Source: Desulfoscipio sp. XC116
GTDB lineage: Bacteria; Bacillota; Desulfotomaculia; Desulfotomaculales; Desulfallaceae
DNA length: 64,000 nt
Reading direction: 5' to 3'
NCBI RefSeq assembly: GCF_039851975.1
Contig: NZ_CP156660.1
Span: 248,001-312,000, forward strand
How positions within the stretch are numbered: the stretch's first letter is position 1; every line of letters starts with the position of its first letter. Below the pieces are notes generated by a model, which was not told the origin of the DNA, made no database searches, and saw only the letters and a program-made list of their open reading frames with translations. Positions 26,033-54,471 of this stretch are shown piece by piece. The position numbers and the translations under genes are program-made.

Positions 26033-26077
26033 AACTAATTGGTTAATTAAGAGCATATACAGAAAGAGGTTTTGCAT

Positions 26078-26896: not shown

Positions 26897-26933
26897 ATTG
26901 TATTCCAAAGCATGGAAAAGGAGGGCGCCTTTG

Positions 26934-29488: not shown

Positions 29489-29489
29489 T

Positions 29490-30326: not shown

Positions 30327-30337
30327 AGAGGTGATTT

Positions 30338-32665: not shown

Positions 32666-33178
32666 TTGCTCCTAATGACAAATGTAGACAACATCAATGC
32701 CGATCAGGTTCCCTATCTTATAGAACAGCTTATGGCCAAGGGGGTAAAGAATGTCCATGTTGTTAATGCTGTAACCAAGAAAGGGAGGCAGGAATATATT
32801 TTTTTTATTGATGTTCAGCAGGACAAGGTTTTTTCAATTAGCCGCTTTCTTGCCAGTGAAATAGGGACGCTGGGAGTAAGAATAATCAAGGCAGATCATA
32901 TCTCGTACGATTATTTCATGAAGAGTATGAAGCTAAGTTTACATGACAATAAAGAGAATCTCGTATGGAAAGGGGCGGTGCAGGTCAAGATTGTCCAAGA
33001 TGATTCGGGTTCTCCTTTGTCCGCCCGTGTTGAATATGAGGATTTGAAAGCATCTGTCAAGGCTATTAATACGGCGGGAGCGGATATATCTTTTTACGAG
33101 CTTAAGCAAATGATTGAAAATGAGGCGCTAAATAGATTAAGGAAAAGTAAATTTGCAATTCGGATTGAGGACGATTGA
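32666..33178 (+). CDS. larC2: LarC2-like domain protein (nickel-pincer cofactor)
   Basis: This 170-residue protein matches the C-terminal part of LarC: TNVDNINADQVPYLIEQLMA corresponds to the conserved T/E-x-NIDDM stretch, followed by the SEIGTLGVRII segment. LarC inserts nickel into the bis-thiocarboxylated pyridinium nucleotide in a CTP-dependent way; the LarC2 part holds the CTP-binding cyclometallase core. In many bacteria larC1 and larC2 are joined by a programmed frameshift or fused; here LarC2 is a separate gene upstream of larB, away from LarC1. Start TTG 32666 fits the GGGAGG spacing; ATG 32675 is possible. Confidence 0.65.
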   Translation: MLLMTNVDNINADQVPYLIEQLMAKGVKNVHVVNAVTKKGRQEYIFFIDVQQDKVFSISRFLASEIGTLGVRIIKADHISYDYFMKSMKLSLHDNKENLVWKGAVQVKIVQDDSGSPLSARVEYEDLKASVKAINTAGADISFYELKQMIENEALNRLRKSKFAIRIEDD

Positions 33179-33212
33179 ATAATGGATAAAATGCGTCAGG
33201 AAGGAGACTATT

Positions 33213-33965: not shown

Positions 33966-33972
33966 AATACGG

Positions 33973-34836
33973 ATGAAAGTTATGTATTTGGATTGTAGTG
34001 CCGGAATCGCAGGCGATATGTTTTTGGGAGGGCTGTTTGACGCAGGGGTCGATCCGGATTTGGTTAGAAATGGTCTGGCCGGCCTGAATCTCAGCGGTTA
34101 CGAAATGCGTGTCGAGAAAGGAACAAGCCATGGAATAGCTGCCAATAGTGTTCAATTTAACGTAGTTGAGGAACAGCCTCATCGTTATCTTAAAGATATT
34201 ATGACCCTAATTGAGGCCGGCAATTTTTCGGAGAATGTTAAAAGTTCAGCCGGAAAAGTATTTTCCCTTCTTGCCCAAGCCGAGGCGAAGGTTCACGGGA
34301 CAACCCCGGATAAAGTGCACTTTCATGAAGTCGGAGCGATTGATTCGATTTGCGATATCATAGGAACTCTGCTTGCAGTCGAAAGTCTGGAAGTGGAAAG
34401 AATTATCTGCTCCCCGCTTTCTTTGGGGAGTGGACATGTACACTGTGCTCACGGCCGAATTCCAGTTCCCGCGCCGGCGACGCTTGAAATAATCAAAGGA
34501 GTTCCGGTGCGCAAAAACGATATTGAGGGTGAACTGGTGACACCTACGGGCGCCGCCTTGGCTGTGACGTTAAGTCAGGAATTTTCCTCTTTGCCTTCCA
34601 TGATTATTGATTCCGTAGGATATGGGATGGGCACCAGGGACTATGGATTTCCAAGTGTCTTGCGGGTTATTATCGGGCGGTCTTTGAAGAAAAACGGGTC
34701 AAAATATCACGCTGAACTGGAACGCAGTGCTAACCACCCCCATACCCATGACCACTTCCATGTTCATAAACATGCCCACGAGCATAAGCACGACCACGAC
34801 CATGAGCACGAGCGGTTAAGCCGGAAGAGAGGATAA
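33973..34836 (+). CDS. larC: LarC1, nickel-insertion protein with His-rich tail
   Basis: A 287-residue protein that starts MYLDCSAGIAGDMFLGGLFD, the signature of LarC (DUF111), and has the VHFHEVGAIDSICDI motif near residue 120. It ends with a histidine-rich tail of about 30 residues, alternating His with Asp, Glu and Lys, as seen in nickel chaperones. The C-terminal cyclometallase domain is not fused but is encoded by the LarC2 gene 0.8 kb upstream. It would act in the cytoplasm to place nickel in the pincer cofactor. Confidence 0.88.
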   Translation: MKVMYLDCSAGIAGDMFLGGLFDAGVDPDLVRNGLAGLNLSGYEMRVEKGTSHGIAANSVQFNVVEEQPHRYLKDIMTLIEAGNFSENVKSSAGKVFSLLAQAEAKVHGTTPDKVHFHEVGAIDSICDIIGTLLAVESLEVERIICSPLSLGSGHVHCAHGRIPVPAPATLEIIKGVPVRKNDIEGELVTPTGAALAVTLSQEFSSLPSMIIDSVGYGMGTRDYGFPSVLRVIIGRSLKKNGSKYHAELERSANHPHTHDHFHVHKHAHEHKHDHDHEHERLSRKRG

Positions 34837-35024
34837 AAATATTGAGGATGAATACCCCAAGAAGTGTTTCACCGTGAACGTTTTACTGTTTGGGAGATTA
34901 TCTGTACGGAAAAAATCTCAAAGGAGGTGTAGAAAGAGGAAAATATTATCTTGAAAGGATAGATGCCTTCTAAACGGATGTAAAGGGTTCACTTTAATAA
35001 AAAATATATGGGAGGTAAATATTG

Positions 35025-36806
35025 ATGGAGAAAGAGATTTTGGCGGTAATAGGTGCGGTTAACTCCAACGTGCAGAATTCGACGAGCGACCGGATCGAAG
35101 CGCTTACCAAAGGTCATGGTATGCTGAACCTTGCCGTAATGGCGGCTGCCAATGCAATGGCAACCCAAATACTGAACGGAAGAAGCATAAAGATATCGGA
35201 TGATAATTTCGTAGAATTGCCTTTGGACGGCGTTTTAAAGGCCGGAATTGATGCTGCCAAAGAAGCGGGGGCGGATAAAGCCAATGCCGCGCTTATTGGC
35301 GCAGTATTGCTTAATTTGGCCGGAACGGCGTCCAGGGCCGGGGTTCCTGCCGGAAACAGGAAGCTGGGCGCCATGGCCCGTATGATTGCCGGGGCCGATC
35401 GTGCGGGGGTGGCGTCAATTCCTACCTCCAAATTAACTTGCAAAGTGTCAGGGTTTGCGGCGGTGAAGGCTTTATACGACGCTATGGAAAAAGGCGAATT
35501 GGTTCGGGTAGACGGAGCGGATGTTCCGGCATTTGTATCCGGCGGCGCTCTTTATGGTCATAGTGTCTTGGGTGAGGATATGACTTATGTCGACCTGGCC
35601 TTAAACGGGACGAAAATTGCCGTGGAAGGTATGAAGAAGGCTTATCGCGGTGTAGGAATTAGTCCCAGCCCCATTATGTGCGCCATGCTGGCGGCGGCGG
35701 CGGTTTTGGAAATTATCAATCCCGATGGCATGATTGATGAACAATATGGCGAATTCTTCGTGAGAAACACAGGATATCTGGCGGGGAAAGGCGCGGCCGA
35801 GGCTGCCGGACTTCCGGAAAAAGTACATCTACGCGGAACCGGCAAAGAGTATGAGACCGCTACATTGATTGGGGATTTGGGGATGATCCTCAAGGATGTG
35901 GGCTCTCCTACAGTGGTTGGGATGATGACGATCAATGAAATGCTGGCCGCTTTCTCGGAAGCCCCAATGATTGGTTCAGGTTTCGGCGGTGGTCCCGTTA
36001 ATCCTCCTCTGGCGCACCTGGTATCGGACACAGTAGTTTCCATGAATGCCGTGCTTGATTGCAAAGGCGATATGGATGCCGCTGCCGATATCTTACACCG
36101 GATGAAAGCAACAGAATGGTTTGATCCGGAGGTTGCGGCTTTTTGCGCCAATACGGTTGCTCATAAAGGGGAGCAGGTGCGGAGAGGTCCGGTTACACGG
36201 GTTATTATCAAGGCTACCGAAGGAGTTCGTATGAACGCGCTCTATACCCGTGCACAAAGAACTTATAATGATTTAAAAGCAGGCAAGAAATTGGATGATA
36301 TTTGTCGGGCGCTGGACCTTGAAAGACAGGCCAGAGTTGAGGAAAATGCCGGAAAAATATTTACGGCCATGTTCGGACAGGAGATACAAATCCATTTTAC
36401 CAAGCTGGCAGGCGGTGCCCATCGCAGTCATCCCTTTGCGCGTAAATATTGGGGATTTGACGCCGATATTGATGCAGAGGTTACTATCGGCGGCCAGAAA
36501 ACAGTCCTGACAGGAGTATCTCATAAAGTAGTCCCTGATGCTGTTTTAAACAAGAAGGCCGAGCTTTCCACGCCTATCACCGTTGCTGCGGCAGTCGCGC
36601 AGGAGCTGATGTACATCGGAGTTTGCACTATTAACGTGGTTGTTCCGGCCGCAATGGCAGCCGCTATGGGTGTGGAAACTTGGGAAGACGCCGGAAAAAT
36701 TGCCGAGAAAGGCGGCTACATCACGGCTGCTATCCCCGGCGCCAAAGACAGTGCCCGCGAAGTGGCGAAAGCGGCAATAAGGATGATGCAGGATCTTAAC
36801 TTCTAA
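35025..36806 (+). CDS. Unrecognised 593-residue protein
   Basis: ATG 35025 follows GGGAGGT. The protein is soluble in composition, rich in Ala and Gly, with no membrane span, no signal and no motif I can name. Conserved-looking spots include [19 protein letters not shown] near residue 325, an [17 protein letters not shown] stretch near 465 with several His, and [19 protein letters not shown] near the end. A decayed copy of its C-terminal part lies at 56030-56500, so it belongs to a family with at least two copies here. Its place behind larC2-larB-larC1 makes it a candidate client of the nickel-pincer cofactor; this is inference, and it is not LarA. Confidence 0.75.
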
Positions 36807-37105: not shown

Positions 37106-37169
37106 AGTTCCCCATGCGAAAGAACTATCCGCGGAAAACCAAGTTTAAACAAGGGAAGGGGTGATTTGG

Positions 37170-38138
37170 TTGAGTCTTTGGGTGAAAGTGGGAGCCCGTT
37201 TGCACCTCGGTCAACTCGACCTTAACGGTTCCTTAGGGCGTTTATACGGAGGACTTGGTTTAGCTATTGATCAACCTTGCTTGGAGATTACTGCGGAGAA
37301 AAAAAATGATTTGGTTATTCTTGGCCCGGAAAAGGAGAAAAAAAGACTGCAGCGGCTGGTCCGTAAATATCTGGACTTTTATGGGCTTCCCGGAGTCAGG
37401 CTCGAACTGTTGGAATCTTTGCCGATGCACAGCGGGTTAGGCTCAGGAACTCAGCTTGCTTTGGCTGTAGGTTTTGCGATAACAAGAGTCTACGGATTAG
37501 CCCCGGCGGTAACGGAGTTAGCGGTCATAACGGACCGGGAAGGCAGCCGCTCCGGGATTGGCGTAGCGGCATTTGAACAAGGGGGCTTTTTTATCGATGG
37601 AGGTATGTGCACCAACATAATAAGACAAACAGGTCTTTTTGAAGTTCCGCCGATTCTTGCTCGAACGCCATTCCCCGAAGAATGGGCAATTATTCTGGCT
37701 TTACCTCACAAGGAAGAGGAGATGTTCGGTCAGGAAGAAGTAAAGGCCTTCGCTTCCTTGCCGCCGATGGCGGAAGAGATATCCGGGATGATCTGCCGGC
37801 TCTTGCTGATGAAACTGCTTCCCAGTCTGATGGAGAAAGATCTGGTGAGTTTCGGACAAGCTGTGACAGAGATTCAGAAACGAATTGGCAGCCATTTCAC
37901 ACCTGTTCAGGGAGGCATCTATGCTTCAAAAGCAGGAGCCGATGTTGCGGCGTATCTACTTAGGCAAGGTGCTGCCGGAGTTGGCCAAAGTTCCTGGGGA
38001 CCGACGATTTACGCTTTTACCAGTCGGGACAAAAAAACGGACTTATTGGAAAAGACCCGGAATTTTTTAGGGAAAAGAGGGCTAGTTTGGACAGCCTCAG
38101 GCAGGAATCAAGGAGTGAGCTGGGGGTGGAAGGAGTAA
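37170..38138 (+). CDS. Beta-ribofuranosylaminobenzene 5'-phosphate synthase
   Basis: This 322-residue GHMP-superfamily protein matches beta-RFAP synthase: N-terminal ARLHLGQLDLNGSLGR, the glycine-rich phosphate loop LPMHSGLGSGTQLALAVG near residue 95, GSRSGIGVAAFEQGGFF, and GVGQSSWGPTIYAF near the end. It joins 4-hydroxybenzoate-derived or 4-aminobenzoate units to PRPP with loss of CO2, the first committed step of H4MPT synthesis. I prefer TTG 37170 to GTG 37161 because AAGGGGTGA lies at the correct distance. It opens the C1/cofactor cluster. Confidence 0.88.
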   Translation: MSLWVKVGARLHLGQLDLNGSLGRLYGGLGLAIDQPCLEITAEKKNDLVILGPEKEKKRLQRLVRKYLDFYGLPGVRLELLESLPMHSGLGSGTQLALAVGFAITRVYGLAPAVTELAVITDREGSRSGIGVAAFEQGGFFIDGGMCTNIIRQTGLFEVPPILARTPFPEEWAIILALPHKEEEMFGQEEVKAFASLPPMAEEISGMICRLLLMKLLPSLMEKDLVSFGQAVTEIQKRIGSHFTPVQGGIYASKAGADVAAYLLRQGAAGVGQSSWGPTIYAFTSRDKKTDLLEKTRNFLGKRGLVWTASGRNQGVSWGWKE

Positions 38139-40803: not shown

Positions 40804-40827
40804 TAATTGAACGAGGAGGATTTACGA

Positions 40828-41691
40828 ATGAAAAAGATTTTGCTTCACTTGGAAGCGGATTCCCAAGCCAGTGTTTTCGACCAAATCACCGCTTATGACG
40901 CCGGGGCCGATCAGGTGCTGGCATACGGGGGAGTGCGCTTGGAGGAAGTGACCAATCTTGTCTATGGCGCCATGTTTACCAGGGGGGGAGAAGGATTACG
41001 CAATACGGCCATCTTCATCGGCGGTACCCATGTTCCGACTGCCGAGGCACTTCTGAAAAAAGTACGGGAAACTTTTTTTGGCGATGTCCGGGTTTCCGTG
41101 ATGTTCGATGCCAACGGATCCAACACAACGGCAGCAGCCCTGGTTCATAAAATTGCTTATGGCCGGAACCTTAAGGGGAAAAAGGCTCTGATTCTTGCCG
41201 GTACCGGCCCGGTTGGCATCCGGGCCGCAATCCTTCTGGCCAAGGAAGGCTGTGAGGTTTATCTTTCTTCCCGGCAATTGGAGCGGGCCCGGGAAGTCGG
41301 AAAACATATTCTGAAGAACAACGGGGTGGAGATTATCCCGCTTGAGATCGGGGAAGCGAAAGATGTTTCAGCGGTACTGAAGCGGGGAATTAACATTGTG
41401 GCTTGTTGTGGGGCCCCCGCTGTGCAAATGTTGGATTTAGCGAGCTGGTCCACCGCAACCGGCCTGGAAATCATTGCGGATATCAACGCCGTCAATCCGC
41501 TGGGAGCGGAAGGGATTAAGGTGACGGACGATGGCAGGGAAAGGGAAGGGAAGATTATCTACGGCGCTATTGCTATCGGCAATCTAAAGATGAAGGTGCA
41601 TCGAGCCGCCGTTCGGACTTTATTTGAAAGTAACCGGCATGTCCTGGATTTCGACTCGATATATGAGATCGCCAAGAAGATGGAGGCTTAA
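40828..41691 (+). CDS. mtdB: Methylene-H4MPT dehydrogenase, NAD(P)-dependent
   Basis: ATG 40828 follows GAGGAGG at 40813-40819; the product is 287 residues. The N-terminal half (LLHLEADSQASVFDQITAYD) and the Rossmann motif GTGPVGIRAAILLA near residue 125 match the MtdA/MtdB family, and the VMFDANGSNTTAAA and AVNPLGAEGI segments are typical. It interconverts methylene-H4MPT and methenyl-H4MPT with NAD or NADP, the entry step of the pathway that continues with Mch, Ftr and Fwd encoded downstream. Cofactor preference cannot be decided from the sequence alone. Confidence 0.9.
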   Translation: MKKILLHLEADSQASVFDQITAYDAGADQVLAYGGVRLEEVTNLVYGAMFTRGGEGLRNTAIFIGGTHVPTAEALLKKVRETFFGDVRVSVMFDANGSNTTAAALVHKIAYGRNLKGKKALILAGTGPVGIRAAILLAKEGCEVYLSSRQLERAREVGKHILKNNGVEIIPLEIGEAKDVSAVLKRGINIVACCGAPAVQMLDLASWSTATGLEIIADINAVNPLGAEGIKVTDDGREREGKIIYGAIAIGNLKMKVHRAAVRTLFESNRHVLDFDSIYEIAKKMEA

Positions 41692-42895: not shown

Positions 42896-42952
42896 ACGAG
42901 CGATGTTCATTCGTTAAGATCGGAAAAGTGCATGGATGAAGGAGGGAGGCCA

Positions 42953-43315
42953 ATGGGCAGCATTTCTGGATTATTGATTACGGTTCGTACCAGTCGACAA
43001 GGGGCGGCGATGGAAAAAGGTAAATTTTGTGATGAGTATATACGAGAAATATCCACTCTGGCTGTAAGTCCTGAAGACTTTGCGCTGCTTCATTTAGAGC
43101 AGGGCAATAAGGCTTTGCTGAAAAGCGCAGCCGGAGAGATCACGGTAACCTGTCGCCCTAAAGAAGGACCGCAAGGGCTTTTCTTTCTTCCTTTGGGACC
43201 TCTGGCTAACCGGCTGATAAGTGGAGAGACCTATGGTACAGGAGTTCCTGATTTTAAAGGGATTTCCGTAGTGCTCTCATCTCTGAAGCCGGATGGGCGG
43301 AAATTAGATGAATAA
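42953..43315 (+). CDS. fwdD: Formylmethanofuran dehydrogenase subunit D
   Basis: The 120-residue protein starts at ATG 42953 behind GGAGGGAGG. It matches the molybdopterin-dinucleotide-binding FwdD/FmdD subunit: TVRTSRQGAAMEKGKFCDEY at the start, LFFLPLGPLANRL in the middle and GTGVPDFKGI near the end. In methanogens this subunit completes the Mo/W-bis-pterin site together with FwdB. The hydrolytic Fhc complex of methylotrophs has no separate FwdD, so its presence here supports a redox-active enzyme. The assignment rests on motif agreement in a short protein. Confidence 0.8.
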   Translation: MGSISGLLITVRTSRQGAAMEKGKFCDEYIREISTLAVSPEDFALLHLEQGNKALLKSAAGEITVTCRPKEGPQGLFFLPLGPLANRLISGETYGTGVPDFKGISVVLSSLKPDGRKLDE

Positions 43316-43397: not shown

Positions 43398-44711
43398 ATG
43401 GCGCTGACTGTTCATGAAGATGTCGTTTGTACGTTTTGCGGCTGTCTTTGTGATGATCTTAAAGTGGAGGTCGCGGATAATCAGATTGCCAAGGTTAGCA
43501 ATGCCTGTGCAATAGGCCGGAACAAGCTGATGCACGCGCAAACGGATTTGGCCTCGTTTCGGGTAAATGGCAGGGAGGCCACCTGGGAAGAGGTGATCTC
43601 TGAAGCGACTAATATTCTAAACCGAGCCAAGGCTCCACTGGTTTATGGCTTAAGCAGTACGACAACTGAGGCCGTCAGAGAAGCAGTAGCCTTAACGGAG
43701 AAGATCAAAGGGACGATTGATAACCCAGCGTCATATTGACACGGGCCGGGCGTTCTCGCCCGCCAGCAAGTTGGGCTGGCTTCATGTACCTTAGGGGAAG
43801 TAAAAAACAGAGCCGATCTTTTGATTTATTGGGGCGCCAATCCCGTGGAATCCCATATGCGTCATTTAAGCCGATATTCTGCTCTGGCTAAGGGACTTTA
43901 TGTTCCGGAAGGGCGCAAAGGGAGGAAGGTCGTAGTCATTGATATCAGGCCGACCCCAACAGCGAAGAATGCAGACCTCTTTATTCAAGTCACTCCGGGT
44001 CAGACTTTTGAAATCGCCCATGTTTTGCGTTGCCTGGTCAAGGGCATTCGTTTGGAAGGGTTGACGGAGACTAGTCTGGTCGGCGGCGTTCCTTTATCCC
44101 AATGGCGCGAATTGGCGGAAATGATGAAACAATGTCGTTATGGAGTGCTCATGTTCGGCATTGGAGTGACGCAAAGCCGGGGTAGAGAGCTGAATATTGA
44201 AGAAATCAATACGTTGGTCAATGAAATGAACCGCTATACCCGTTTTTATGCCATTGCTATGCGGGGGCACGGCAACGTGAACGGGAGTAACCATGTTTTG
44301 GCGTGGCAGACCGGCTATCCTCTGGCGGTAAACTTTTATCGTGGTTACCCTCGTTATAGTCCGGGCGAATTCAGTGTCGTGGATATGCTGATGCGTCAAG
44401 ATGTGGATGCAGCTCTGATTGTAGCCACGGACCCGGGTGCTCATTTGCCGGAGCAAGCTGTCCGGTATCTGAAGAGCATCCCGACCATTGTGCTTGAGCC
44501 GCACGAAAGCTTAACCACGACCTGGGCTAATGTAGTCATCCCTGTCGCTCCGGCCGGAGTGGGTGTCGAAGGGACGTTCTACCGAATGGATAATGTTGCC
44601 CTTCGTTTAAAAAAATTGGTTGATTTCCCATATCCCTCCGATTTGGAAGTTCTGCGGGAGCTAAAGGAGAGAGTAAGTTATGTTGAAAATTGTGAACGGT
44701 CGGATTTATGA
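43398..44711 (+). CDS. fwdB: Formylmethanofuran dehydrogenase subunit B, selenoprotein
   Basis: A single frame from ATG 43398 to the stop at 44709-44711 is interrupted only by TGA 43737-43739 (codon 114). Around it the product reads NPASY-U-HGPGVLARQQ, which aligns with the FwdB site where Cys or Sec binds Mo or W. The rest of the chain continues without frame change (GEVKNRADLLIYWGANPVE). N-terminal CTFCGCLC plus NACAIG supply the four [4Fe-4S] cysteines. The 437-residue length is normal. It reduces CO2 to formate or the reverse, which FwdA joins to or removes from methanofuran. The gene overlaps fwdA by 32 bases. Confidence 0.9.
43737..43739 (+). other. In-frame TGA, probable selenocysteine codon
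   Basis: TGA occurs at codon 114 of fwdB with open frame of high similarity to the family on both sides. Methanogen FwdB proteins of some species (Methanopyrus, Methanocaldococcus) have Sec at this metal-binding position, and others have Cys. Confidence 0.85.
43740..43785 (+). promoter_or_regulatory. Candidate bacterial SECIS element
   Basis: Directly after the TGA two perfect six-base stems can form: CGGGCG-UUCU-CGCCCG (43747-43762) and GCCAGC-AAGUUGG-GCUGGC (43762-43780). The loop of the second begins 28 bases after the TGA, within the distance known for bacterial SECIS hairpins; an alternative fold GCCC/GGGC (43758-43776) puts a G first in the loop. The stems share base 43762 and exclude one another in part. 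Confidence 0.65.
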
Positions 44712-46320
44712 TCCTATTAATGGGGTAAAAGGAGAAGTCCGGGATATCTATGTCGAGAACGGCAAAATCACAGAATACTTGCCTGACAAGGAGATTAGTC
44801 AGATCATTGATGCCTCAGGCTGTGCGGTTATGCCGGGGGGAATTGAGATCCACAGCCATATTGCCGGAGCTAAGGTTAACAGTGCCCGTATCATGTGTCC
44901 GGAAGATCATTACGATCATTTCAAATTAAGCACTGTCGGGACACGTTCCGGGACAGGCTATACCGTTCCCAGCACCTTTCTGACAGGGTACGCTTATTCC
45001 GCGCTTGGCTATACCACAGCTTTTGAAGCTGCGGTCCCGGCCCTCGAGGCTCGGCATGCTCATGAAGAGTTGGAAGATATCCCAATGCTGGATTCGGGGA
45101 TCTATACTCTGATGGCCAATGACCATTTGATTATGAAGGTCTTAAGCCGGAAGGACAAGTGCGGAAGCAAAGAGCAGTTGCGGGATCTGGTAAGCTGGTT
45201 TTTAACCAGCAGCAAAGGATATGCGGTCAAAGCGGTCAATCCCGGGGGAGTGGAAAGCTGGAAATGGAGCCGGGGAGCTGTGGACTTGGATACGCCTGTA
45301 CCTCCATTTGGCATCACGCCCAGAAAGCTGCTTCTTAGCTTGGTGGAGGCAATCCGGGAATTGAAACTTCCGCATGGTCTTCATCTTCATGCCAATCATC
45401 TGGGCGAAGCAGGGAACTTTAAGACAACTTTGGAAACGATGCGTACCCTTGAAGGGTACCCTGTGCATTTTACGCACCTCCAATTTCATTCCTATGGTAT
45501 AACCGGCAAAGGAGCAATGCAATCGGCGGCTAGGGAGATTGCCGAATACTTGAATGCGCATCCTGAGTTCACCTGTGATGTAGGACAGATTGTTTTTGGG
45601 CCGGTGACCACCATGACTGCGGATTCTCCCATGCAATTCCGACTGCATGAGATGACCGGGAACAAGTGGAGCAATGCCGATATCGAGATGGAAACCGGAT
45701 CGGGAATTGTTCCTATGCTCTATAAGCCAACGGTGCTTTTTAATGCGATTCAGTGGTGTATTGGTCTGGAATTGCTTCTGCTCATTAAAAACCCTTGGCA
45801 GATTATCTTGACGACCGACCATCCCAATGCCGGGCCGTTTACCTCTTATCCCCACATTATTCGGCTGCTGATGGATGCGGATTTTCGGAATTCCGTCCTG
45901 GAGCGGCTTCATCCCAAGACGGGTGCTTTTACCTATCTTAAGGAATTAAAGAGAGAGTATTCTTTGGAGGAAATCTGCATTGTGACCCGTTCCGCCCCGG
46001 CCAAGGCTTTAGGTTTGTCTCAAAAAGGGCATTTGGGCAGCGGAACGCAGGCTGATGTGGCAATTTATCGGCTGCAGGATGATAAAGAGAAAATGTTTGC
46101 CAAACCGGCTTACGTTTTTAAGAATGGTAAGGTTGTCGTTCGGGACGGAGAAGTGCTCCAAAGCATCAGTGGAAAAAGGCTGATTGTCGAACCGGACGGT
46201 GCGAGAAAGCTGTCTCCCGATTTGGCCCGGGATTTTGCCAATTACTATTCTATTGCTTTAAGTAATTTTGCAGTTCAGGATGAGTATCTGGCACAGCCGG
46301 AGGTGATACCATGCATTTAA
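44680..46320 (+). CDS. fwdA: Formylmethanofuran dehydrogenase subunit A
   Basis: The 546-residue amidohydrolase-superfamily protein has the dinuclear metal HxH in GGIEIHSHIAGAKVN near residue 60, further His in LHLHANHLGE and THLQFHSYG, and the catalytic Asp region ILTTDHPNAGPF near residue 380. FwdA condenses formate with methanofuran, or hydrolyses formylmethanofuran in the reverse direction. It begins within the end of fwdB behind AGGAGAG and ends inside the start of ftr (10-base overlap). All visible metal ligands are in place. Confidence 0.93.
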   Translation: MLKIVNGRIYDPINGVKGEVRDIYVENGKITEYLPDKEISQIIDASGCAVMPGGIEIHSHIAGAKVNSARIMCPEDHYDHFKLSTVGTRSGTGYTVPSTFLTGYAYSALGYTTAFEAAVPALEARHAHEELEDIPMLDSGIYTLMANDHLIMKVLSRKDKCGSKEQLRDLVSWFLTSSKGYAVKAVNPGGVESWKWSRGAVDLDTPVPPFGITPRKLLLSLVEAIRELKLPHGLHLHANHLGEAGNFKTTLETMRTLEGYPVHFTHLQFHSYGITGKGAMQSAAREIAEYLNAHPEFTCDVGQIVFGPVTTMTADSPMQFRLHEMTGNKWSNADIEMETGSGIVPMLYKPTVLFNAIQWCIGLELLLLIKNPWQIILTTDHPNAGPFTSYPHIIRLLMDADFRNSVLERLHPKTGAFTYLKELKREYSLEEICIVTRSAPAKALGLSQKGHLGSGTQADVAIYRLQDDKEKMFAKPAYVFKNGKVVVRDGEVLQSISGKRLIVEPDGARKLSPDLARDFANYYSIALSNFAVQDEYLAQPEVIPCI

Positions 46321-47240
46321 ACGGAGTAGAAATTGAAGATACGTTTGCCGAAGCCTTTACCATGCGGGCTGCTCGGCTGACAGTTACGGCCATCAATGAG
46401 CAATGGGCGCGGCATGCTGCCTCGGCCGCGACCGGTTTTGCAACCTCGGTAATCGGCTGCGGGGTGGAAGCAGGTATTGAAGGAACTTCCGCACTTACTC
46501 CTGATGGCAGAGCAGGGGTAGATTGTCTTTTCTTTGCCTCTTCCAAGGACGAATTGGAAGCGAATCTGATCAAACGCGTGGGGCAGGCCATCATGACCTC
46601 CCCTACCTCTGCTTGTTATGATGGAGGATTAACGGAACTTCCGGCCAATTTTGATGGATTCAGCAAATTTAATATAGGTGGCAAGCTGCGCTTCTTCGGG
46701 GACGGTTATCAAGCCAGCAAAATAATCGGAAACAAGCGATACTGGCGGATTCCGGTGATGGAAGGTGAGTTTCTGATTGAAGAAGAATTTACCATGGCTA
46801 AGGCGGTCGGGGGAGGCAATTTCTTGATTTTGGCGGACAGTATTGAGTCGGCCCTGAAGGCCTCTGAGGTTGCGGTCCGCAAGATGCAGGAAATCCGGGG
46901 AATAATTCTGCCTTTCCCCGGTGGCGTGGTGCGCAGCGGCAGTCAGGTCGGATCAAAATATAAGTTCCTGTCGGCTTCCACGAATACTGCTTACTGCCCC
47001 ACTATTCGAGGCAGAGTGGAAGCAAGCGCACTTCAGGACGGTATCAATGCCGTCCTGGAAATTGTTATTGATGGGCTCACAGATCGCTTGGTCGGTCAGG
47101 CAATGGCCGACGGAATTCGAGAAGCTGTGCAGGTTCCCGGAGTCCGGCGCATCTCAGCCGGCAACTATGGCGGACGCTTAGGAAAGTACCACTTCCACTT
47201 GCAGCAGCTTTTAAGTCTGTCGGGGGGGGAGCAGGGATGA
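46311..47240 (+). CDS. ftr: Formylmethanofuran:H4MPT formyltransferase
   Basis: A 309-residue protein with the Ftr/FhcD pattern: MHLNGVEIEDTFAEAFTMRA at the start, ATGFATSVIGCGVEAGIE, and ARKIIGN-like GYQASKIIGNKRYWRIPVMEG in the first half. It moves the formyl group between methanofuran and N5 of H4MPT. GGAGGTGAT precedes the ATG that overlaps the fwdA stop. Methylotroph clusters place the same gene between the A and C subunits (FhcA, D, C), so the order here is the same. Confidence 0.95.
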   Translation: MHLNGVEIEDTFAEAFTMRAARLTVTAINEQWARHAASAATGFATSVIGCGVEAGIEGTSALTPDGRAGVDCLFFASSKDELEANLIKRVGQAIMTSPTSACYDGGLTELPANFDGFSKFNIGGKLRFFGDGYQASKIIGNKRYWRIPVMEGEFLIEEEFTMAKAVGGGNFLILADSIESALKASEVAVRKMQEIRGIILPFPGGVVRSGSQVGSKYKFLSASTNTAYCPTIRGRVEASALQDGINAVLEIVIDGLTDRLVGQAMADGIREAVQVPGVRRISAGNYGGRLGKYHFHLQQLLSLSGGEQG

Positions 47241-48094
47241 GTAGCCGGATCACATTGAGACTAAAAGAAGAGTCTTCACTCCCGGTGGAGGCGGAAAGCA
47301 TCAACCCGGAGAATCTATGTGGAAAAACTTTGGAGGAAATCCGGCGGCTGCCGCTTTGGAGCGGTAACCGCAGCTATCGGCTTGAGAATTTTTTTGAAGT
47401 AGAGAGCAGCGAGTCGGTAAGAGAAGCGGGCGCTTTGCAACGGGAGGATAAGCCTCTAAAGGTCATTCTGCGGGGTGATTTGTCACGCTTTAAACGGTTA
47501 GGGCAGGGCATGAGCGCAGGAGAGATGGAGATCCAGGGTTCCGTGGGGTTCCATGCCGGGGCGGAAATGCGCGGAGGTATTCTCCGTATAAAAGGTGATG
47601 CAGGGGATTGGCTTGGTGCGCATATGGAGGGCGGCCAGATTCTGGTGGAAGGCTCGGCCGGGCATTTCACGGGTGCCGCTTATCGGGGAAAAACCCAGGG
47701 AATGAGGGGCGGAAGTATCCTGATTCGGGGAAATGCCGGGCAGATGGCCGGTTCCAGGATGAGACGGGGACTGCTGGCCATCGGCGGAGACTGTGGAGAT
47801 GCACCGGGCTTTAAGATGCAGGCCGGAACGCTACTCGTTGCCGGCAATTCCGGCACTCTGGCAGGGAGCAATATGCTCAGAGGAACTATTATCTTTCTGC
47901 GGCCCGTCAGGCTGTTGCCGACTTTCTATTATAATTGCTGCTATCGCCCCATCTTCTGGGGGTTATTGGTTCAGGAACTGCGTAACAACGGCTTTGATCT
48001 ATCTGAGTCGGCAAACGAGGCATTTTTCCGGCGTTTCAGCGGGGATGCCAATGAGGGCGGTAAGGGGGAAATTCTTTTATGCCAATCCAATTAG
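47237..48094 (+). CDS. fwdC: Formylmethanofuran dehydrogenase subunit C
   Basis: The 285-residue protein carries the glycine-rich beta-helix repeats of FwdC/FhcC (also seen in the GltS alpha-subunit end), for instance GEMEIQGSVGFHAGAEMRGG, ILRIKGDAGDWLGAHMEGG and ILVEGSAGHFTGAAYRG, about seven turns in residues 80-220. It is a structural subunit that binds FwdA and FwdB. Its start overlaps ftr and its end overlaps mch by 16 bases. Confidence 0.93.
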   Translation: MSSRITLRLKEESSLPVEAESINPENLCGKTLEEIRRLPLWSGNRSYRLENFFEVESSESVREAGALQREDKPLKVILRGDLSRFKRLGQGMSAGEMEIQGSVGFHAGAEMRGGILRIKGDAGDWLGAHMEGGQILVEGSAGHFTGAAYRGKTQGMRGGSILIRGNAGQMAGSRMRRGLLAIGGDCGDAPGFKMQAGTLLVAGNSGTLAGSNMLRGTIIFLRPVRLLPTFYYNCCYRPIFWGLLVQELRNNGFDLSESANEAFFRRFSGDANEGGKGEILLCQSN

Positions 48095-49053
48095 CAGATG
48101 TTGGGCAGTTAAGTCCCAATCGTCAGGCTTTTCCATTCGTCAGGCAACTGCTGGAGCATTCGAAACAATTGAAGGTAGGGATTCAAAAAATCGGTCAGTC
48201 TACAGTGATCGACTGCGGGGTCGATGTACCGGGAAGCTGGCAGGCGGGTGTTCTGTTTGCTAAAATTTGTCTGGGCGGTTTGGCGGAAGTGACGCTGAAT
48301 TGGTCTGATTTCGATGGATTGCGCTGGCCGACAGTTGAGGTGGTCACCGACCACCCGGTTCGGGCTTGTATGGCATCCCAGTATGCGGGGTGGTTTATCA
48401 AAAAAAACAAGTATTCGGCCATGGGCTCAGGACCGGCTCGTGCTGTCGTCCAGGCAGAAGAACTATTTGAAAAACTGGGGTATAAGGATTCGGGAGATTT
48501 GGCAATTCTCTGCCTGGAAGGGAGCAAGCTTCCGACGGAAGAAGCCGTGAGCTGGATCGTGGAAAAGTGTCGATGTCCTGCTGAAAATATCTATATTCTT
48601 ATCGCCCCCACGGCATCTACCGTAGGTTCGGTACAGATTGCGGCGCGCTCTGTGGAGACCGGACTGCATAAGCTGATGGAGCTGGGCTATGACATAGGGC
48701 TGATTGAGAGCGGTTGGGGCATGGCGCCTGTCCCACCGGTGGCTGAAAATGATCTCAAGGCTTTGGGGCGAACCAATGACGCCATTCTTTATGGGACGAC
48801 GGTTTATTATACGTTGGATGACGAAGATGAGCGAATTGAGTCCCTAATCGGTGAGGTTCCTTCCTCCAGTTCCCGTGACTATGGAGTGCTCTTTCAGGAA
48901 TTATTCGAGCGTTACGGTAATTTCTATGATATTGACCCTTTGCTGTTCAGTCCGGCGCAAGTTTGGCTGAGCAATAAGCGCAGCGGGCGTTCTTTTCAGG
49001 CTGGGGAGATCCGCCTTGATCTCCTGCGCCAATCCTTTAAGCTTAAAGGATGA
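48079..49053 (+). CDS. mch: Methenyl-H4MPT cyclohydrolase
   Basis: The 324-residue protein matches Mch through DCGVDVPGSWQAGVLFAKIC near residue 45, MGSGPARAVV near residue 117, and AENDLKALGRTNDAILYG near residue 230. It interconverts methenyl-H4MPT and 5-formyl-H4MPT, linking MtdB to Ftr. The gene lies inside the fwdC-mch overlap, so the two proteins are translationally coupled. Length and motifs are normal for the family. Confidence 0.95.
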   Translation: MPIQLADVGQLSPNRQAFPFVRQLLEHSKQLKVGIQKIGQSTVIDCGVDVPGSWQAGVLFAKICLGGLAEVTLNWSDFDGLRWPTVEVVTDHPVRACMASQYAGWFIKKNKYSAMGSGPARAVVQAEELFEKLGYKDSGDLAILCLEGSKLPTEEAVSWIVEKCRCPAENIYILIAPTASTVGSVQIAARSVETGLHKLMELGYDIGLIESGWGMAPVPPVAENDLKALGRTNDAILYGTTVYYTLDDEDERIESLIGEVPSSSSRDYGVLFQELFERYGNFYDIDPLLFSPAQVWLSNKRSGRSFQAGEIRLDLLRQSFKLKG

Positions 49054-49062
49054 GAGGCTGAG

Positions 49063-49974
49063 ATGAAAAAGAAGATGCATTGCCGTAAGAAGCGCATTGG
49101 AATTCTGGGTGTGGCTAAAGGACCCCAGGTTCAAATTATGTCCGAGGTATTGAAAAAGTTGGGAACTGAGGTCATTTTAATCGATCCTAAAAGACTGACC
49201 TCTTTTTTGCCTCAGAGTTGTACGCTTTACACGGAAAACGATGCTTCCGTATTGCAGCTTGAGGAACTGGATGCTTTGCTGGTGCGCTCACTGCCGGGCG
49301 GATCCCTGGAACAGGTAATTTACCGGGTCAATGTCCTGCATCGTTTGGAAATGCTCGGTTTAAAAGTTATCAACAGTGCTTCGCTGATCGAAAAAACGGT
49401 AGACAAGTTTTTTACCTCAGCCATTTTGGCTGCCGCAGGGTTGCCGGTTCCCAGAACCATTGTTACAGAACGCTTTGACCAGGCGATAGAAGCGGTGGGA
49501 GAGTTGGGGTCGGTTGTTGTCAAGCCGGTTTTTGGTTCCTTAGGGAAAGGCATTGTCCTGGTTGAAGACCTGGATATTGCCCATCGAGTCTTTCGGGCCT
49601 TGGAAATGGGACGCTATATATATTATTTGCAGGAGTTTCTGCCTAACGGCAATGAGGATCTGCGGATTTTTGTGATCGGCGGAAAAGTGGTCGGGGCAAT
49701 GCGGCGCCGCGGCTCAGGTTGGAAAACCAACATTGCCTGCGGGTCGAGAGCAGAAGTTTATCAGCCTGAAAAGGAAATAGCCCGGATGGCGGTTCAGACG
49801 GCCAAGCTCCTGAAAGCGGATTATTTGGGAGTCGATATTCTTATCAGCAATGACACGCCCTATGTCATTGAAGCCAATGGGATACCGGGTTGGACCGGGT
49901 TGCAGTCCGTCTCCGAAACAGACATCGCAGCCGCTCTGGCGGAGTACACTCTTGAGGAGATCAAAAAGCACTAA
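49063..49974 (+). CDS. RimK-type ATP-grasp ligase (H4MPT cluster)
   Basis: A 303-residue ATP-grasp protein with the RimK arrangement: N-terminal KKRIGILGVAKGPQVQIMSE, the nucleotide-binding VVVKPVFGSLGKGIVLVED segment near residue 150, and the Mg site GVDILISNDTPYVIEANGIP near residue 265. RimK relatives such as MptN and CofF add glutamate to H4MPT or F420. A glutamyl ligase acting on the pterin or on methanofuran is likely; the exact substrate is not visible. Confidence 0.8.
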   Translation: MKKKMHCRKKRIGILGVAKGPQVQIMSEVLKKLGTEVILIDPKRLTSFLPQSCTLYTENDASVLQLEELDALLVRSLPGGSLEQVIYRVNVLHRLEMLGLKVINSASLIEKTVDKFFTSAILAAAGLPVPRTIVTERFDQAIEAVGELGSVVVKPVFGSLGKGIVLVEDLDIAHRVFRALEMGRYIYYLQEFLPNGNEDLRIFVIGGKVVGAMRRRGSGWKTNIACGSRAEVYQPEKEIARMAVQTAKLLKADYLGVDILISNDTPYVIEANGIPGWTGLQSVSETDIAAALAEYTLEEIKKH

Positions 49975-49990: not shown

Positions 49991-50935
49991 ATGGGATATA
50001 ACTGGAAAATCGCCTTAATGGCTCAAACAGCTTGTTTTTTGGAAGTGGATGCTCCTAAAGTCGGGAACGTCAACCGTTTCCATGATTTTGAGGACGCTTC
50101 TTTGGAAGACTTTCATCTCAGTGCCCTGGCGATTGGGCGTCCTTTCGGTTACCTAGAACAGCAAGGGGTAGGGAAAACGATTGCCGCAGCGTTAAAAGCC
50201 ACCCGTGAAGTTGTGGCGACCAACACCAATCTGGGAATCATTTTATTGCTTGCACCGCTGGGCATGGCCTGGTGCCGCGGAGTATCCGAAAATGTTTTTT
50301 CTTCTGGGAATCAAGAGCAATCCTTTGTCCATGCTTTACAGCGGGAAATAAAAGATGTGCTGAAAGGACTTTCAGCGGAGGACACCTATTACGTTTATCA
50401 GGCTATTCGTCTGGCCTCTCCCAAGGGGATCGGGGAGGTGCGGCAATATGATGTCTTGCGGGAAGACATTCCTCAGATTCCCTTGCTTGAAGCTATGAGG
50501 CCGGCAGCAGACCGGGATTTGATTGCCCGGCAATACAGTAATGATTTTGCGCTGGTTCTCGGTGCTGGATATGAAGCCCTGAGTTGGGTCTTGGAGAAAG
50601 GGTTGGTCTTACCTCAAGCGATTGCTCATACTCACCTGATTTTATTAAGCATGGAGCAGGATTCTCTGATCAAACGCAAGCTGGGAGAGAATTGGAGCAA
50701 AGAAGTACAAAAACGGGCGCTCTTTGTGCGGGAACAAGGAGGCTGGCTTACTCAGAAAGGCCGGAAAGAAGTTCAGAAGTTTGACCTCTGGCTAAGGCAA
50801 GAAGGACATGGGCTCAATCCCGGAACGACTGCGGACCTGATGGCGGCGATTATTTTTGTGCATTTGCTGGAAAAGGATTTGAAAATGAAAGGGGTTGGTA
50901 GCAGCGACTACAGCTTTGATGATCAGCGTTTTTGA
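49991..50935 (+). CDS. CitG-like (triphosphoribosyl-dephospho-CoA synthase family) protein
   Basis: The 314-residue protein starts at ATG 49991 behind GAGGTAAAG. EVDAPKVGNVNRFHDFEDAS and GVGKTIAAALKATREVVATNTNLGI are the hallmark segments of the CitG/MdcB family, which condenses ATP with dephospho-CoA. In H4MPT gene clusters of methylotrophs a CitG-like gene is regularly present without citrate lyase and its role there is unknown; a ribosyl or phosphoribosyl transfer in cofactor synthesis is a reasonable guess. It overlaps the start of mfnB. Confidence 0.82.
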   Translation: MGYNWKIALMAQTACFLEVDAPKVGNVNRFHDFEDASLEDFHLSALAIGRPFGYLEQQGVGKTIAAALKATREVVATNTNLGIILLLAPLGMAWCRGVSENVFSSGNQEQSFVHALQREIKDVLKGLSAEDTYYVYQAIRLASPKGIGEVRQYDVLREDIPQIPLLEAMRPAADRDLIARQYSNDFALVLGAGYEALSWVLEKGLVLPQAIAHTHLILLSMEQDSLIKRKLGENWSKEVQKRALFVREQGGWLTQKGRKEVQKFDLWLRQEGHGLNPGTTADLMAAIIFVHLLEKDLKMKGVGSSDYSFDDQRF

Positions 50936-51701
50936 AGGAAAAGAAATCACTGCTGCGCTGGATGGCGGCGCCGACATTATTGATGTCAAGAACCCTGCGG
51001 AAGGACCCTTGGGAGCGCCATCACCTGAAGCCATTAGTGATGTTTGCAACCGGCTCAAGGGAAATAAGCCTTTCAGTATTGCCTTGGGAGAATTTCCAAA
51101 CAAACCGAATGCTGCGGCGCTAGCTGCCTTGGGCGGAGCACATTTCCTGCCGGATTTTATTAAAGTTGCGTTTGTCTCGCACACTGTGTCTGAAGAAATT
51201 TTCGAGACATTGCGTGCGATCAAGAAAAGTCTGCGCTTTTTCCGGCAAAAGAAAATCGCCCTGGTATCCGTAGCCTATGCCGATACGCTGGGGTCCGCTT
51301 CCTGGAATCTCAGCGACTTTGCAACGGTTTCCAAAGCGGGGGGAGCGGATGGCTGTCTTGTGGATACATCGCAGAAGAATGGTAAATCCTTACCGGATTA
51401 TTTATCCCGGAACAATATTGAACGATTTATTGCTGACTGTCGCAAAGAACAGCTTTTTTGCGGATTGGCCGGGTCCCTGCGCATTGACAATGTGACTGAC
51501 TTATGCAGATTGGAACCGGATATTATTGGTGTCCGTTCAGCGGTCTGTGGGGGAGATCGCCTGCGGGGTACGGTATCCGCGCAAAGTGTTCGGGAGCTTA
51601 GAGCTGCGCTTGGGCCCAGCGGCTTCCGGGGGGCAGAAAGACTCCGCGGGTCTGGCCGGTTTCCAGAAGAACGCGCAGCCTTTCCGGATCTGAACCGTTG
51701 A
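50919..51701 (+). CDS. mfnB: (5-Formylfuran-3-yl)methyl phosphate synthase
   Basis: A TIM-barrel protein of the MfnB (DUF556) family: GGADIIDVKNPAEGPLGA at the start, DFIKVAFVSH and a DTSQKNGKSL segment with the lysines of the Schiff-base site, and DIIGVRSAVCGG near the end. It condenses two glyceraldehyde-3-phosphate molecules into the furan of methanofuran. ATG 50919 is chosen by family length; TTG 50895 is an alternative. The last 30 residues (after RAALGPSG) do not look like the family and overlap the opposite-strand mfnE gene by 104 bases, so the ancestral stop was probably lost. Confidence 0.88.
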   Translation: MISVFEGKEITAALDGGADIIDVKNPAEGPLGAPSPEAISDVCNRLKGNKPFSIALGEFPNKPNAAALAALGGAHFLPDFIKVAFVSHTVSEEIFETLRAIKKSLRFFRQKKIALVSVAYADTLGSASWNLSDFATVSKAGGADGCLVDTSQKNGKSLPDYLSRNNIERFIADCRKEQLFCGLAGSLRIDNVTDLCRLEPDIIGVRSAVCGGDRLRGTVSAQSVRELRAALGPSGFRGAERLRGSGRFPEERAAFPDLNR

Positions 51702-52251
51702 GAAACCAGGCCGGCATGGCAAGGGGAAGGAGTTGACGGAAAAAAAGATCAACGTCCGGCTCTTGAAGCGTTGGCTCAATATCCTTGCTTTTAACCAGAA
51801 CGAGCATAGAACAGTTCAACCGCCTAGCTAAATAAGCGGCAATGGAATCCGAAGTGGTATTCCAGGAGCGGGCTAGATCGCTTGCGGGTACCTGTCCAAG
51901 GCAGTGAGAGCATATCAGGATTTGGGAGCCGGCGGAGATGCCCCGAACAGCTGGCCGGGAATATCTTGCAGCGGGCAGGACGGTCACTTTGCTTCCGGGA
52001 ATCCGTTCCTGAAGAATGAACGCATATTGATCCATAGCACCTAAGGCCATAAAATGGCAGGTTTCTTCACTAAGGTCCAGTTGTTTTCCGTATTCACGGA
52101 CCAGGTCGGCAAAAGGACCTCCTCCGGGGACGATTAGAACAGGATGTCTTTGCCCATAGCGGGAGATGATATTTCCCAATTGCCGCAGCACTTCGCCGCT
52201 TTCCTGTTGAATCAGGCTGCCGCCAAGTTTTATCAGGATGGGTCTGGGCAT
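51598..52251 (-). CDS. mfnE: MfnE-like amino acid kinase family protein
   Basis: A 217-residue kinase of the aspartokinase/UMP-kinase fold: PILIKLGGSLI at the start, VLIVPGGGPFADLVREYG, and the nucleotide-binding WNTTSDSIAAYLA near residue 140. MfnE phosphorylates 5-(aminomethyl)-3-furanmethanol phosphate to the diphosphate used by MfnF. It is the only gene on the minus strand in the 18-kb cluster. ATG at the complement of 52249-52251 is preferred to the GTG 12 bases upstream because AAGGAG would be too close to the latter. Its 3' end overlaps mfnB. Confidence 0.82.
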   Translation of the reverse strand: MPRPILIKLGGSLIQQESGEVLRQLGNIISRYGQRHPVLIVPGGGPFADLVREYGKQLDLSEETCHFMALGAMDQYAFILQERIPGSKVTVLPAARYSRPAVRGISAGSQILICSHCLGQVPASDLARSWNTTSDSIAAYLARRLNCSMLVLVKSKDIEPTLQEPDVDLFFRQLLPLAMPAWFLNGSDPERLRVLLETGQTRGVFLPPGSRWAQAQL

Positions 52252-52351
52252 AACGTGAACCACTCCTTTTGAAAGTCCAATAAAGTGAAAACTCTATGGA
52301 GTTATAGCCTTATTATATATCAAAGTTATTTCCCAAAGGGGGGGGTGTCCG

Positions 52352-53380
52352 ATGAAGCTTCTTATTTATGAGTATTTTTCATCCGGGGCGAGGGAAAATC
52401 AGGACTTGAAACAAGCCGGTTTTGCCATGTTGGACGCTATTTTAAAAGATTTTGTTGAAATTCCTGAACTGCACCTCATGACTGTGCTCGATGTTTCCCT
52501 CCGGGAGGCTTTTGTCCGGGCCTCATACAGCCAAAAAGTTGATGTTTGCTGGAGTAGTGGGAGTAAAGACGGGACTCGGCAGTATGAAAAGACTTTAATG
52601 GCTTGCCGGGCTGTGTTGATCATCGCCCCGGAAATTGCGGGGATACTTGCGGAATTAACCGCTATTGCCGAGCGTTGGGGGAAAATCGTACTCGGATCAA
52701 ATTCCCATGCGCTGAAAATTGTTTGCCATAAAAGTGATATGCTGGACCTAATGAAGAAGAAAGGCTTGCCCGTTCCGAAATCTCAAACGTATTCGAAGCC
52801 TTTTCCCCAAAACATGCAGGCCGAAATTTTAGACTGTCTTTCTTTTCCGTTTGTAATTAAGCCGGTATACGGTGCCGGGGGAGAAGGCGTCCGGCTGATT
52901 GAGACGGGCGACCGGCTGGACAAGGCAATCGAACAGCTTTCGCGAATGGAAGAAGAAATTTTTCTTTTCCAGGAATATATCCCCGGACAAGCGGTAAGCG
53001 TCAGCTGCTTTGTTCTTGGCGGCAAGGCGCTTCCGCTTAGTCTCAACAGGCAAAACATCAAGATTCAGGGTGAATTTGTTTTTCAAGGTATTACTATTCC
53101 TTTTGTTCACGCCGAGGCTGGGGAGATCATGAAAACAGCGGTGAAGGCATGTGAAGTGGTGCAGGGACTTAAGGGGTTTGTCGGGGTTGACCTGGTGGTG
53201 AATACCCGGGGCCCTGTATTGATGGAAATCAATGCCCGTCCCACCATGGCTTATGTGGCCCTGAGAGAAGTCGTTTCCCGCAACCTGGTCGGGGATCTCC
53301 TGGCGCTTGGCCTGGAGAACAGTCTGCCGGAAAAACCGGAGGTCAGAGGAACATATACCTATAGTCTCCAGCTTGCCTGA
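52352..53380 (+). CDS. mfnD: Tyramine--glutamate ligase-like ATP-grasp protein
   Basis: The 342-residue protein begins MKLLIYEYFSSGAREN, the start of MfnD proteins, and has ATP-grasp nucleotide (FVIKPVYGAGGEGVRLIE) and Mg-binding (GVDLVVNTRGPVLMEINARPT) segments near residues 165-300. MfnD joins glutamate to tyramine in methanofuran synthesis. GGGGGG-rich purine stretch 52337-52346 serves as RBS. It diverges from mfnE, with an 88-base gap (52264-52351 counted from the GTG) for two promoters. MfnA, which makes tyramine, is not in the window. Confidence 0.8.
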   Translation: MKLLIYEYFSSGARENQDLKQAGFAMLDAILKDFVEIPELHLMTVLDVSLREAFVRASYSQKVDVCWSSGSKDGTRQYEKTLMACRAVLIIAPEIAGILAELTAIAERWGKIVLGSNSHALKIVCHKSDMLDLMKKKGLPVPKSQTYSKPFPQNMQAEILDCLSFPFVIKPVYGAGGEGVRLIETGDRLDKAIEQLSRMEEEIFLFQEYIPGQAVSVSCFVLGGKALPLSLNRQNIKIQGEFVFQGITIPFVHAEAGEIMKTAVKACEVVQGLKGFVGVDLVVNTRGPVLMEINARPTMAYVALREVVSRNLVGDLLALGLENSLPEKPEVRGTYTYSLQLA

Positions 53381-53400: not shown

Positions 53401-54471
53401 TTGAAGTTGAGTTCGATTTTAGGACTGGATATCGGCGGGGCCAATACCAAGGGATGTTATTTGGAAAGCGACGGAGAAAGGATTCTCAAAGTAAAAGGGC
53501 GTTCCATTTATCATGAAGTGTGGAGAGATCCGGACGGGCTGTGTGATGTTCTATCGGGCTTCAGGCTTTTCGGCGGGCAGCGGACGGGAAAAAGTCCTGA
53601 CGGAATTGCCTTATCCATGACGGCTGAACTTTGCGATTGTTTTGAATCGAAAGCGGAAGGGGTATTGCTCATTCTCAGTACAGTAGAAAGGGCTTTCCCG
53701 GAGGTTCCCATCCGCATTTGGACTACCGGGCAGGTTTTCGTCGGGCCGTCCGCTATAAGAAGTGACCCCTTGCAGGCTGCTGCCGCCAATTGGCTGGCCA
53801 GTGCCACTGCCTTGGTTCGCAGCCCTCATTTGCGGGATTCCGCTATTTTCGCGGACATGGGAAGCACCACCACGGATATCCTTCCGATAATCCCGGGTAA
53901 AGTCTTGGCCAGAGGCAGGACGGATACCGAGCGCTTGCTGTGGGGAGAACTGTTGTACACAGGCTTGCTTCGAACATCGGTCCATTCCCTGATTGATGAA
54001 GTTTACATAGACGGTTCCCGCTGCCGGGTAGCTCACGAATATTTTGCTATCACGGCCGATGTCTACCGTTTATTGGGGCTGATCCCGGAGGCGGCCTATA
54101 ATGTTGCGACTCCCGACGGGAAAAGCAGGGATACGGAGGCTTGCGCTAAACGCTTGGCCCGTGTGGTTGGGGCGGAACCGGAGGAATTGGGAAGTAAAAA
54201 TATTTATTGGCTGGCCCGTATGGTTATGGAAAAGCAGACGGAACAAATTATGTACAATATCTTGCAAATTGTGTCGGCAAAGGATGTACCGCCGCCCAAA
54301 CAGTTGATCTTGACCGGGTCGGGGAGCTTTATTCTGAGGGAAGCGGCAAGACGTTTGGGATTGATGGCAATACCTTGGCGGAAAATGATACCAGGGGCAA
54401 AAGCCTATCCGGCCATGACCTGTTATGCGGTAGCTTGGCTGCTGTCTCAACAAGAGCAGAGAAGGATGTGA
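53401..54471 (+). CDS. mfnF: MfnF-like H4MPT-linked C1 transfer pathway protein
   Basis: A 356-residue protein of the hydantoinase/oxoprolinase-related ASKHA fold with the phosphate-1 motif ILGLDIGGANTKGCYLES at the start, SAIFADMGSTTTDILPI near residue 155 and a LILTGSGSFILREAARRLG segment near the end. MfnF couples the furan diphosphate to the gamma-glutamyltyramine, giving the methanofuran core. TTG 53401 follows GAGGAGTGGA. It is packed between mfnD and the HisA-like gene. Confidence 0.85.
   Translation: MKLSSILGLDIGGANTKGCYLESDGERILKVKGRSIYHEVWRDPDGLCDVLSGFRLFGGQRTGKSPDGIALSMTAELCDCFESKAEGVLLILSTVERAFPEVPIRIWTTGQVFVGPSAIRSDPLQAAAANWLASATALVRSPHLRDSAIFADMGSTTTDILPIIPGKVLARGRTDTERLLWGELLYTGLLRTSVHSLIDEVYIDGSRCRVAHEYFAITADVYRLLGLIPEAAYNVATPDGKSRDTEACAKRLARVVGAEPEELGSKNIYWLARMVMEKQTEQIMYNILQIVSAKDVPPPKQLILTGSGSFILREAARRLGLMAIPWRKMIPGAKAYPAMTCYAVAWLLSQQEQRRM

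Follow-up and report, generated by a model that had tools for sequence, protein, structure and literature searches.

Formylmethanofuran dehydrogenase is a CO2-converting enzyme that is best known from methane-making archaea. In the tungsten enzyme of Methanothermobacter wolfei (Fwd; PDB 5t5i), the subunit FwdB carries a [4Fe-4S] cysteine set, a metal ligand (Cys118) and a His/Arg site, and is accompanied by FwdA, FwdC and a separate FwdD. FwdB and FwdD constitute the CO2-reducing module (PMC11656701), and the fourth domain of formate dehydrogenases has its counterpart in FwdD (PMC7331816). A selenoprotein form of FwdB, with selenocysteine (Sec), is known from methanogenic archaea (PMC13188914); an example is Methanopyrus kandleri (cited in PMC13188914), which has UHxP at the metal-ligand position.

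The Fhc complex of methylotrophs lacks FwdD, and its FhcB subunit has no metal ligand. A Fwd-like complex encoded in the order fwdDBA-ftr-fwdC, with no fwdE, fwdF or fwdG, was published from the Hakuba Actinobacteria together with the same comparison to Fhc, and its FwdB retains the Fe-S domain and the catalytic residue (PMC7325909). A survey reported 149 bacterial FwdB proteins and inferred their transfer from archaea (PMC10100899). In other words, bacterial FwdDBA-Ftr-FwdC operons and their contrast with Fhc are already known, and what is new here is a cultured, selenium-type case. A search of literature lying mostly outside subscription journals returned no paper on a bacterial Sec-FwdB.

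The host is a cultured sulfate-reducing Desulfoscipio isolate whose genome of 4,261,206 bases is made up of a 4,259,676-bp chromosome and a 1,530-bp plasmid, and the genome announcement makes no mention of methanofuran or tetrahydromethanopterin (H4MPT) (PMC12896167). The stretch analyzed, called the window, is 64,000 nucleotides long, and coordinates below are window positions, with the genes of the operon and the cofactor genes that flank it on the + strand unless stated otherwise. The sequence and fold comparisons described below suggest, with a probability of about 0.8, that the FwdD of this bacterium belongs to a formylmethanofuran dehydrogenase core (FwdABCD) of the archaeal, redox-active type, with net oxidation as the likelier direction.

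The genes are ordered fwdD-fwdB-fwdA-ftr-fwdC-mch, with mtdB upstream and mptN downstream. Downstream of fwdB are fwdA for the amidohydrolase subunit (44680..46320; TIGR03121, 1.1e-216), ftr (fhcD) for formylmethanofuran-H4MPT formyltransferase (46311..47240; TIGR03119, 9e-118), fwdC for the beta-helical subunit (47237..48094; TIGR03122, 9e-80), mch for methenyl-H4MPT cyclohydrolase (48079..49053; TIGR03120, 5e-113) and an mptN-like gene for H4MPT:glutamate ligase (49063..49974; NF040720, 8e-70). The mtdB-like methylene-H4MPT dehydrogenase gene is at 40807..41691 (PF09176, 4.5e-31). Genes for H4MPT and methanofuran synthesis flank the operon on both sides. They include a beta-RFAP synthase gene for H4MPT synthesis (37161..38138; NF040726, 2e-71), mfnB-like (50895..51701; NF002575, 1e-54) and mfnE-like kinase (51598..52263, - strand; NF040622, 4e-19) genes for methanofuran synthesis, an mfnD-like ATP-grasp ligase gene (52352..53380; NF040722, 1e-32) and an mfnF-like gene, also matched as one_C_unchar_1 (53401..54471; TIGR03123, 1e-91).

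Further upstream, nickel-pincer cofactor genes occupy 32666-34836, where LarC is split into larC2 and larC1 around larB, and a 594-residue frame with no Pfam or NCBIfam match (35022-36806) separates the lar genes from the H4MPT cluster. A gene for a methyltransferase weakly similar to CpaM, followed by an ABC transporter operon of the nickel/peptide type, spans 26072-32056. At the right end of the window, a formate dehydrogenase gene (63014-64000) continues in L053 (3014-5701); it contains an in-frame TGA at the Sec site (CARTUHAPT), and molybdopterin-related genes adjoin it.

How does this locus compare with the described systems? It shares a separate FwdD, FwdA, FwdC and the FwdB site residues with the M. 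wolfei enzyme, from which it differs in being bacterial, in having Sec in place of Cys118, in being encoded with ftr and mch, and in that FwdF, FwdG and FwdE were not found in the cluster. The Hakuba locus has the same fwdDBA-ftr-fwdC arrangement without fwdE, fwdF or fwdG, but there FwdB has Cys and genes for H4MPT synthesis are missing from the genome, whereas the host has Sec, has synthesis genes around the operon and is a cultured isolate. Fhc of methylotrophs has the B-A-ftr-C order and genes for H4MPT and methylofuran-type synthesis in common with the host, but not FwdD or the metal ligand. Methanogen Sec-FwdB resembles the host FwdB in the UHxP motif, and the host differs in being a bacterium with bacterial Sec machinery.

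The gene fwdD encodes the double-psi-barrel pterin-dinucleotide-binding subunit, an assignment based on profile, PDB, alignment and fold. Its frame (42953..43315) is open, freestanding, 120 residues long and ends in TAA, and fwdB is the next gene. The stop-to-stop frame is 139 residues. The ATG at 42953, with a strong probable ribosome-binding site read from the sequence (AAGGAGGGAGG, 42938..42949), is favored as the start; a longer form starting at 42932 is weaker and less likely. The best NCBIfam match of the protein is NF042908 FwdD (4e-17). Its 62.5 bits fall below the 175-bit cut-off of that model, which is uninformative here because the FwdD of a Methanomicrobiales archaeon reaches just 83 bits. 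Pfam Molydop_binding matched at 26.0 bits, narrowly under its cut-off of 26.8. FwdD chains rank first in a sequence search of the PDB (2ki8, 4.2e-18; 8rja_D, 4.5e-15; 5t5i_D, 3.9e-12), and 9sfi_S is also among the top matches. The original prediction had read this frame as FwdD from the motifs RQG, PLGPLANRL and GVPDFKG and had named a FwdD/FmdD profile search as its check. All three motifs are in the frame, the first as TSRQG, the profile match is significant, and the profile, the PDB chains and the predicted fold agree on FwdD. In an alignment of 15 FwdD rows, T17, R19, Q23, G24, K31, P80, G89, N93, G104, P106 and K109 (127-residue numbering) are invariant or nearly so. T17, R19, Q23, G24 and N93 are candidate residues for binding the bis-pterin guanine dinucleotide together with FwdB.

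Further evidence comes from the predicted fold. An AlphaFold2 model built from the 15-row alignment had a mean pLDDT of 83.9, and its best PDB matches in Foldseek were the FwdD chains of 8rja and 5t5i (E 2e-11 to 6e-11). Structural alignment of the model with crystal and cryo-EM FwdD chains by VIA-align gave Z scores of 16-18 with an rmsd of 1.6-1.7 over 111 residues (17.7 for 8rja_J, about 17 for 8rja_D, and 16.8 for 5t5i_D over 111 residues at 1.7 A). Below the FwdD chains came the final domains of formate dehydrogenases and nitrate reductases, along with designed double-psi barrels (Z about 10.5). The double-psi beta-barrel, whose absence had been named as grounds for discarding the assignment, is thus present in predicted FwdD. 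By sequence and model, FwdB appears as the first three domains of a catalytic unit like that of formate dehydrogenase, and FwdD as the fourth, split off as a separate protein.

The catalytic subunit FwdB (43398..44711; TIGR03129, 5.3e-158) has 437 residues when its in-frame TGA is read as Sec. This TGA (43737..43739) is read as Sec114; the alignments pair it with Cys118, the catalytic cysteine of M. wolfei FwdB (5t5i_B), and with the non-standard residue that 9sfi_Q has there. Read through the TGA, FwdB matched 8rja_B, a redox-active archaeal FwdB, at 5.6e-122, but FhcB of Fhc (6s6y_B) only at 1.6e-13. The protein carries the [4Fe-4S] cysteines at 11, 14, 18 and 37, the Sec ligand and the R-x-H pair (Arg289, His291), which is the residue set of a redox-active Fwd/Fmd. 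The host genome also contains a tRNA-Sec gene (67.1 bits) to go with the in-frame TGA at this known Sec/Cys position. In a search for a SECIS 3' of the TGA, hairpins fold, but none better than shuffled sequence (z -0.70). The corresponding region is similar in L059 and L062 (52-57 of 60 bases alike), a likeness that may mirror the coding sequence alone. Among the FwdBs aligned, Sec was present only in the host and in genomes G342 and G410.

The original prediction held that a separate FwdD distinguishes this enzyme from Fhc and that FwdD and Sec-FwdB form a complete Mo/W site. Both statements fit a comparison of loci in which the archaeal references were PDB alignments and one locus, L004. The Cys/Sec-His and R-x-H residues were kept in all 12 complete Firmicute FwdBs encoded beside fwdD and in archaeal L004, whereas both were lost in 5/5 Fhc-type FhcBs from plasmids (Azoarcus, Thiodictyon, Azospirillum, Aquabacterium and Paraburkholderia). 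The FwdD profile found no match in these five Fhc-type loci or in a Cupriavidus locus, even at E 10. A locus of Firmicute G187 (L069) with the order ftr-ATPgrasp-fwdB-fwdA also belongs on the side without the site: its FwdB (L069:12259-13434) lacks the metal ligand, and a freestanding FwdD was found neither in the locus nor anywhere in the G187 genome. A tree of 23 FwdB/FhcB rows placed the Fhc rows in one group (100/100) and the host FwdB with archaeal FwdB. FwdB of L069 fell on the Fwd side on a long branch that leaves its placement unsure, and L069 is possibly an independent turn of Fwd into an Fhc-like complex. Twelve Firmicute loci thus have both FwdD and the Cys/Sec site, and six other loci have neither; it therefore seems that the two were lost jointly, possibly on more than one occasion. 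Since the redox-site residues track the presence of FwdD, a complete Mo/W site in the host FwdB-FwdD appears well supported by the sequences, with Sec placed at the metal-ligand position and the Fhc-type loci having neither element.

These observations bear on two other readings of the cluster. The complex could be Fhc-like and non-redox, with FwdB as a mere scaffold and formate hydrolyzed off and released as in Methylorubrum. The B-A-ftr-C order, which is the same as in fhc, and the failure to find an electron-transfer subunit in the cluster would fit such a complex, but it is highly improbable because Fhc has no D subunit and its FhcB lacks the metal ligand, whereas Sec114, with its His and R-x-H, and FwdD are present here, and FwdB groups with archaeal FwdB rather than FhcB. 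Furthermore, Fae, which is adjacent to fhc in L052 and L083, is absent from the host. Even more improbable is that the 120-residue protein supplies a pterin-binding domain to another molybdoenzyme, such as the formate dehydrogenase that starts at the right end of the window, and not to FwdB. The last domain of formate dehydrogenases does have the same fold, but the right-end enzyme carries its own C-terminal domain, fwdD adjoins fwdB in all FwdD-bearing Firmicute loci examined, and the top sequence matches are FwdD.

How would a FwdABCD core work, and in which direction? FwdD would close over the bis-pterin guanine dinucleotide held by FwdB, and the pair would interconvert CO2 and formate at Mo or W. 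Formate would move inside the complex to FwdA and be exchanged there with methanofuran, Ftr, Mch and MtdB would connect the formyl group to methylene-H4MPT, and electrons would exit through the FwdB cluster to a soluble ferredoxin. The host complex may either oxidize formylmethanofuran or reduce CO2, as the original prediction proposed, and according to structural work the direction is set by the electron partner and not by the active site (PMC11493965). Net flow from H4MPT-bound C1 units to CO2 is judged likelier because Mer was not found in the 11 genomes searched, CdhC was not found in nine of the 14 Ftr-positive genomes examined, and the potential of formylmethanofuran is low (-0.53 V; PMC11656701). 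The same redox complex running mainly in reverse, placing CO2 onto methanofuran with low-potential ferredoxin and supplying H4MPT-bound C1, is less probable, though it draws on the reversible active site and on two CdhC genes in the host, with which CO2 fixation to acetyl-CoA would be possible. Against it, there is no Mer for reaching methyl-H4MPT, most Ftr-positive genomes lack CdhC, and a formyltetrahydrofolate synthetase (FTHFS) gene in the host indicates that a folate methyl branch is probably there already. The FTHFS gene and the two CdhC genes therefore suggest that, beside the H4MPT cluster, the host probably operates a Wood-Ljungdahl route based on folate.

Some results, that of the SECIS search among them, count against the redox FwdABCD explanation. 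No FwdF/FwdG-like electron-transfer gene was found in the host cluster or in 16 regions of related genomes, and no gene with the CxxCxxCxxxC ferredoxin motif was found in any FwdD-bearing cluster examined; in the window, this motif matched only an ABC-transporter-type frame and the right-end formate dehydrogenase. Fae, a possible source of methylene-H4MPT, was not found in 14 genomes.

Where did the cluster come from? Relatives were located through a whole-genome search for Ftr, which was present in one of 113 genomes of the host's class, that of the host itself. In the phylum, 18 of 398 genomes had Ftr matches, 14 of them above the family cut-off, and 13 of these 14, including the host, encode a freestanding FwdD, G187 being the exception. 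Four genomes (G158, G242, G261 and G389) have divergent Ftr-like proteins (about 25-31% identity) that probably belong to another family and were left aside; freestanding FwdD was not found in these genomes. The FwdD-profile matches in relatives of the host's order fell in the final domain of frames resembling formate dehydrogenase, mostly of ~540 residues, and not in freestanding FwdD. A FwdD scan of the contig collection returned a single archaeal locus. The FwdBs nearest to that of the host are those of G342 and G410, which belong to the same phylum but to another family (f31), outside the class searched for Ftr. The absence of Ftr from class-mates and the position of the nearest FwdB kin elsewhere suggest lateral gain of the host fwd cluster.

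Related Firmicutes have in common a cluster of mtdB, an ATP-grasp gene, fwdD, fwdB, fwdA, ftr, fwdC, mch, mptN, citG and mfn genes. The order is not constant: in several of these Firmicutes, for instance, ftr precedes fwdD. In three Firmicute H4MPT clusters, a DUF2193 gene (PF09959, archaea-conserved; 5e-251 in L055) immediately precedes mtdB (L055:771-2252, L057:15515-16999 and L060:16176-17660) and may belong to the pathway. A sigma-54-dependent activator is encoded near the H4MPT cluster in L055, L056, L057, L063, L065, L066 and L067 and is a candidate regulator; that of L056 has the architecture GAF-PAS-AAA-HTH.

Taken as a whole pathway, the host may have a complete methanofuran/H4MPT route for C1 units, leading either to CO2 or away from it, that uses a Sec-dependent, FwdF/FwdG-free Fwd core and operates beside the folate Wood-Ljungdahl route and without Fae, a tentative proposal whose odds are slightly short of even. 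Joint presence or absence of FwdD and the metal-ligand residue across bacterial loci offers a simple way to distinguish, in genomes, redox Fwd from non-redox Fhc, two complexes that are often annotated alike. The host being an isolate, the question of whether bacterial Fwd complexes are true CO2/formylmethanofuran redox enzymes can be taken to the bench, and a Fwd core without FwdF and FwdG would be a simpler CO2-capturing enzyme of biotechnological interest. If the proposal is true, the complex would be a minimal redox Fwd, and bacteria would be using H4MPT in a third physiological way, distinct both from formaldehyde oxidation and from a methanogen-like use.
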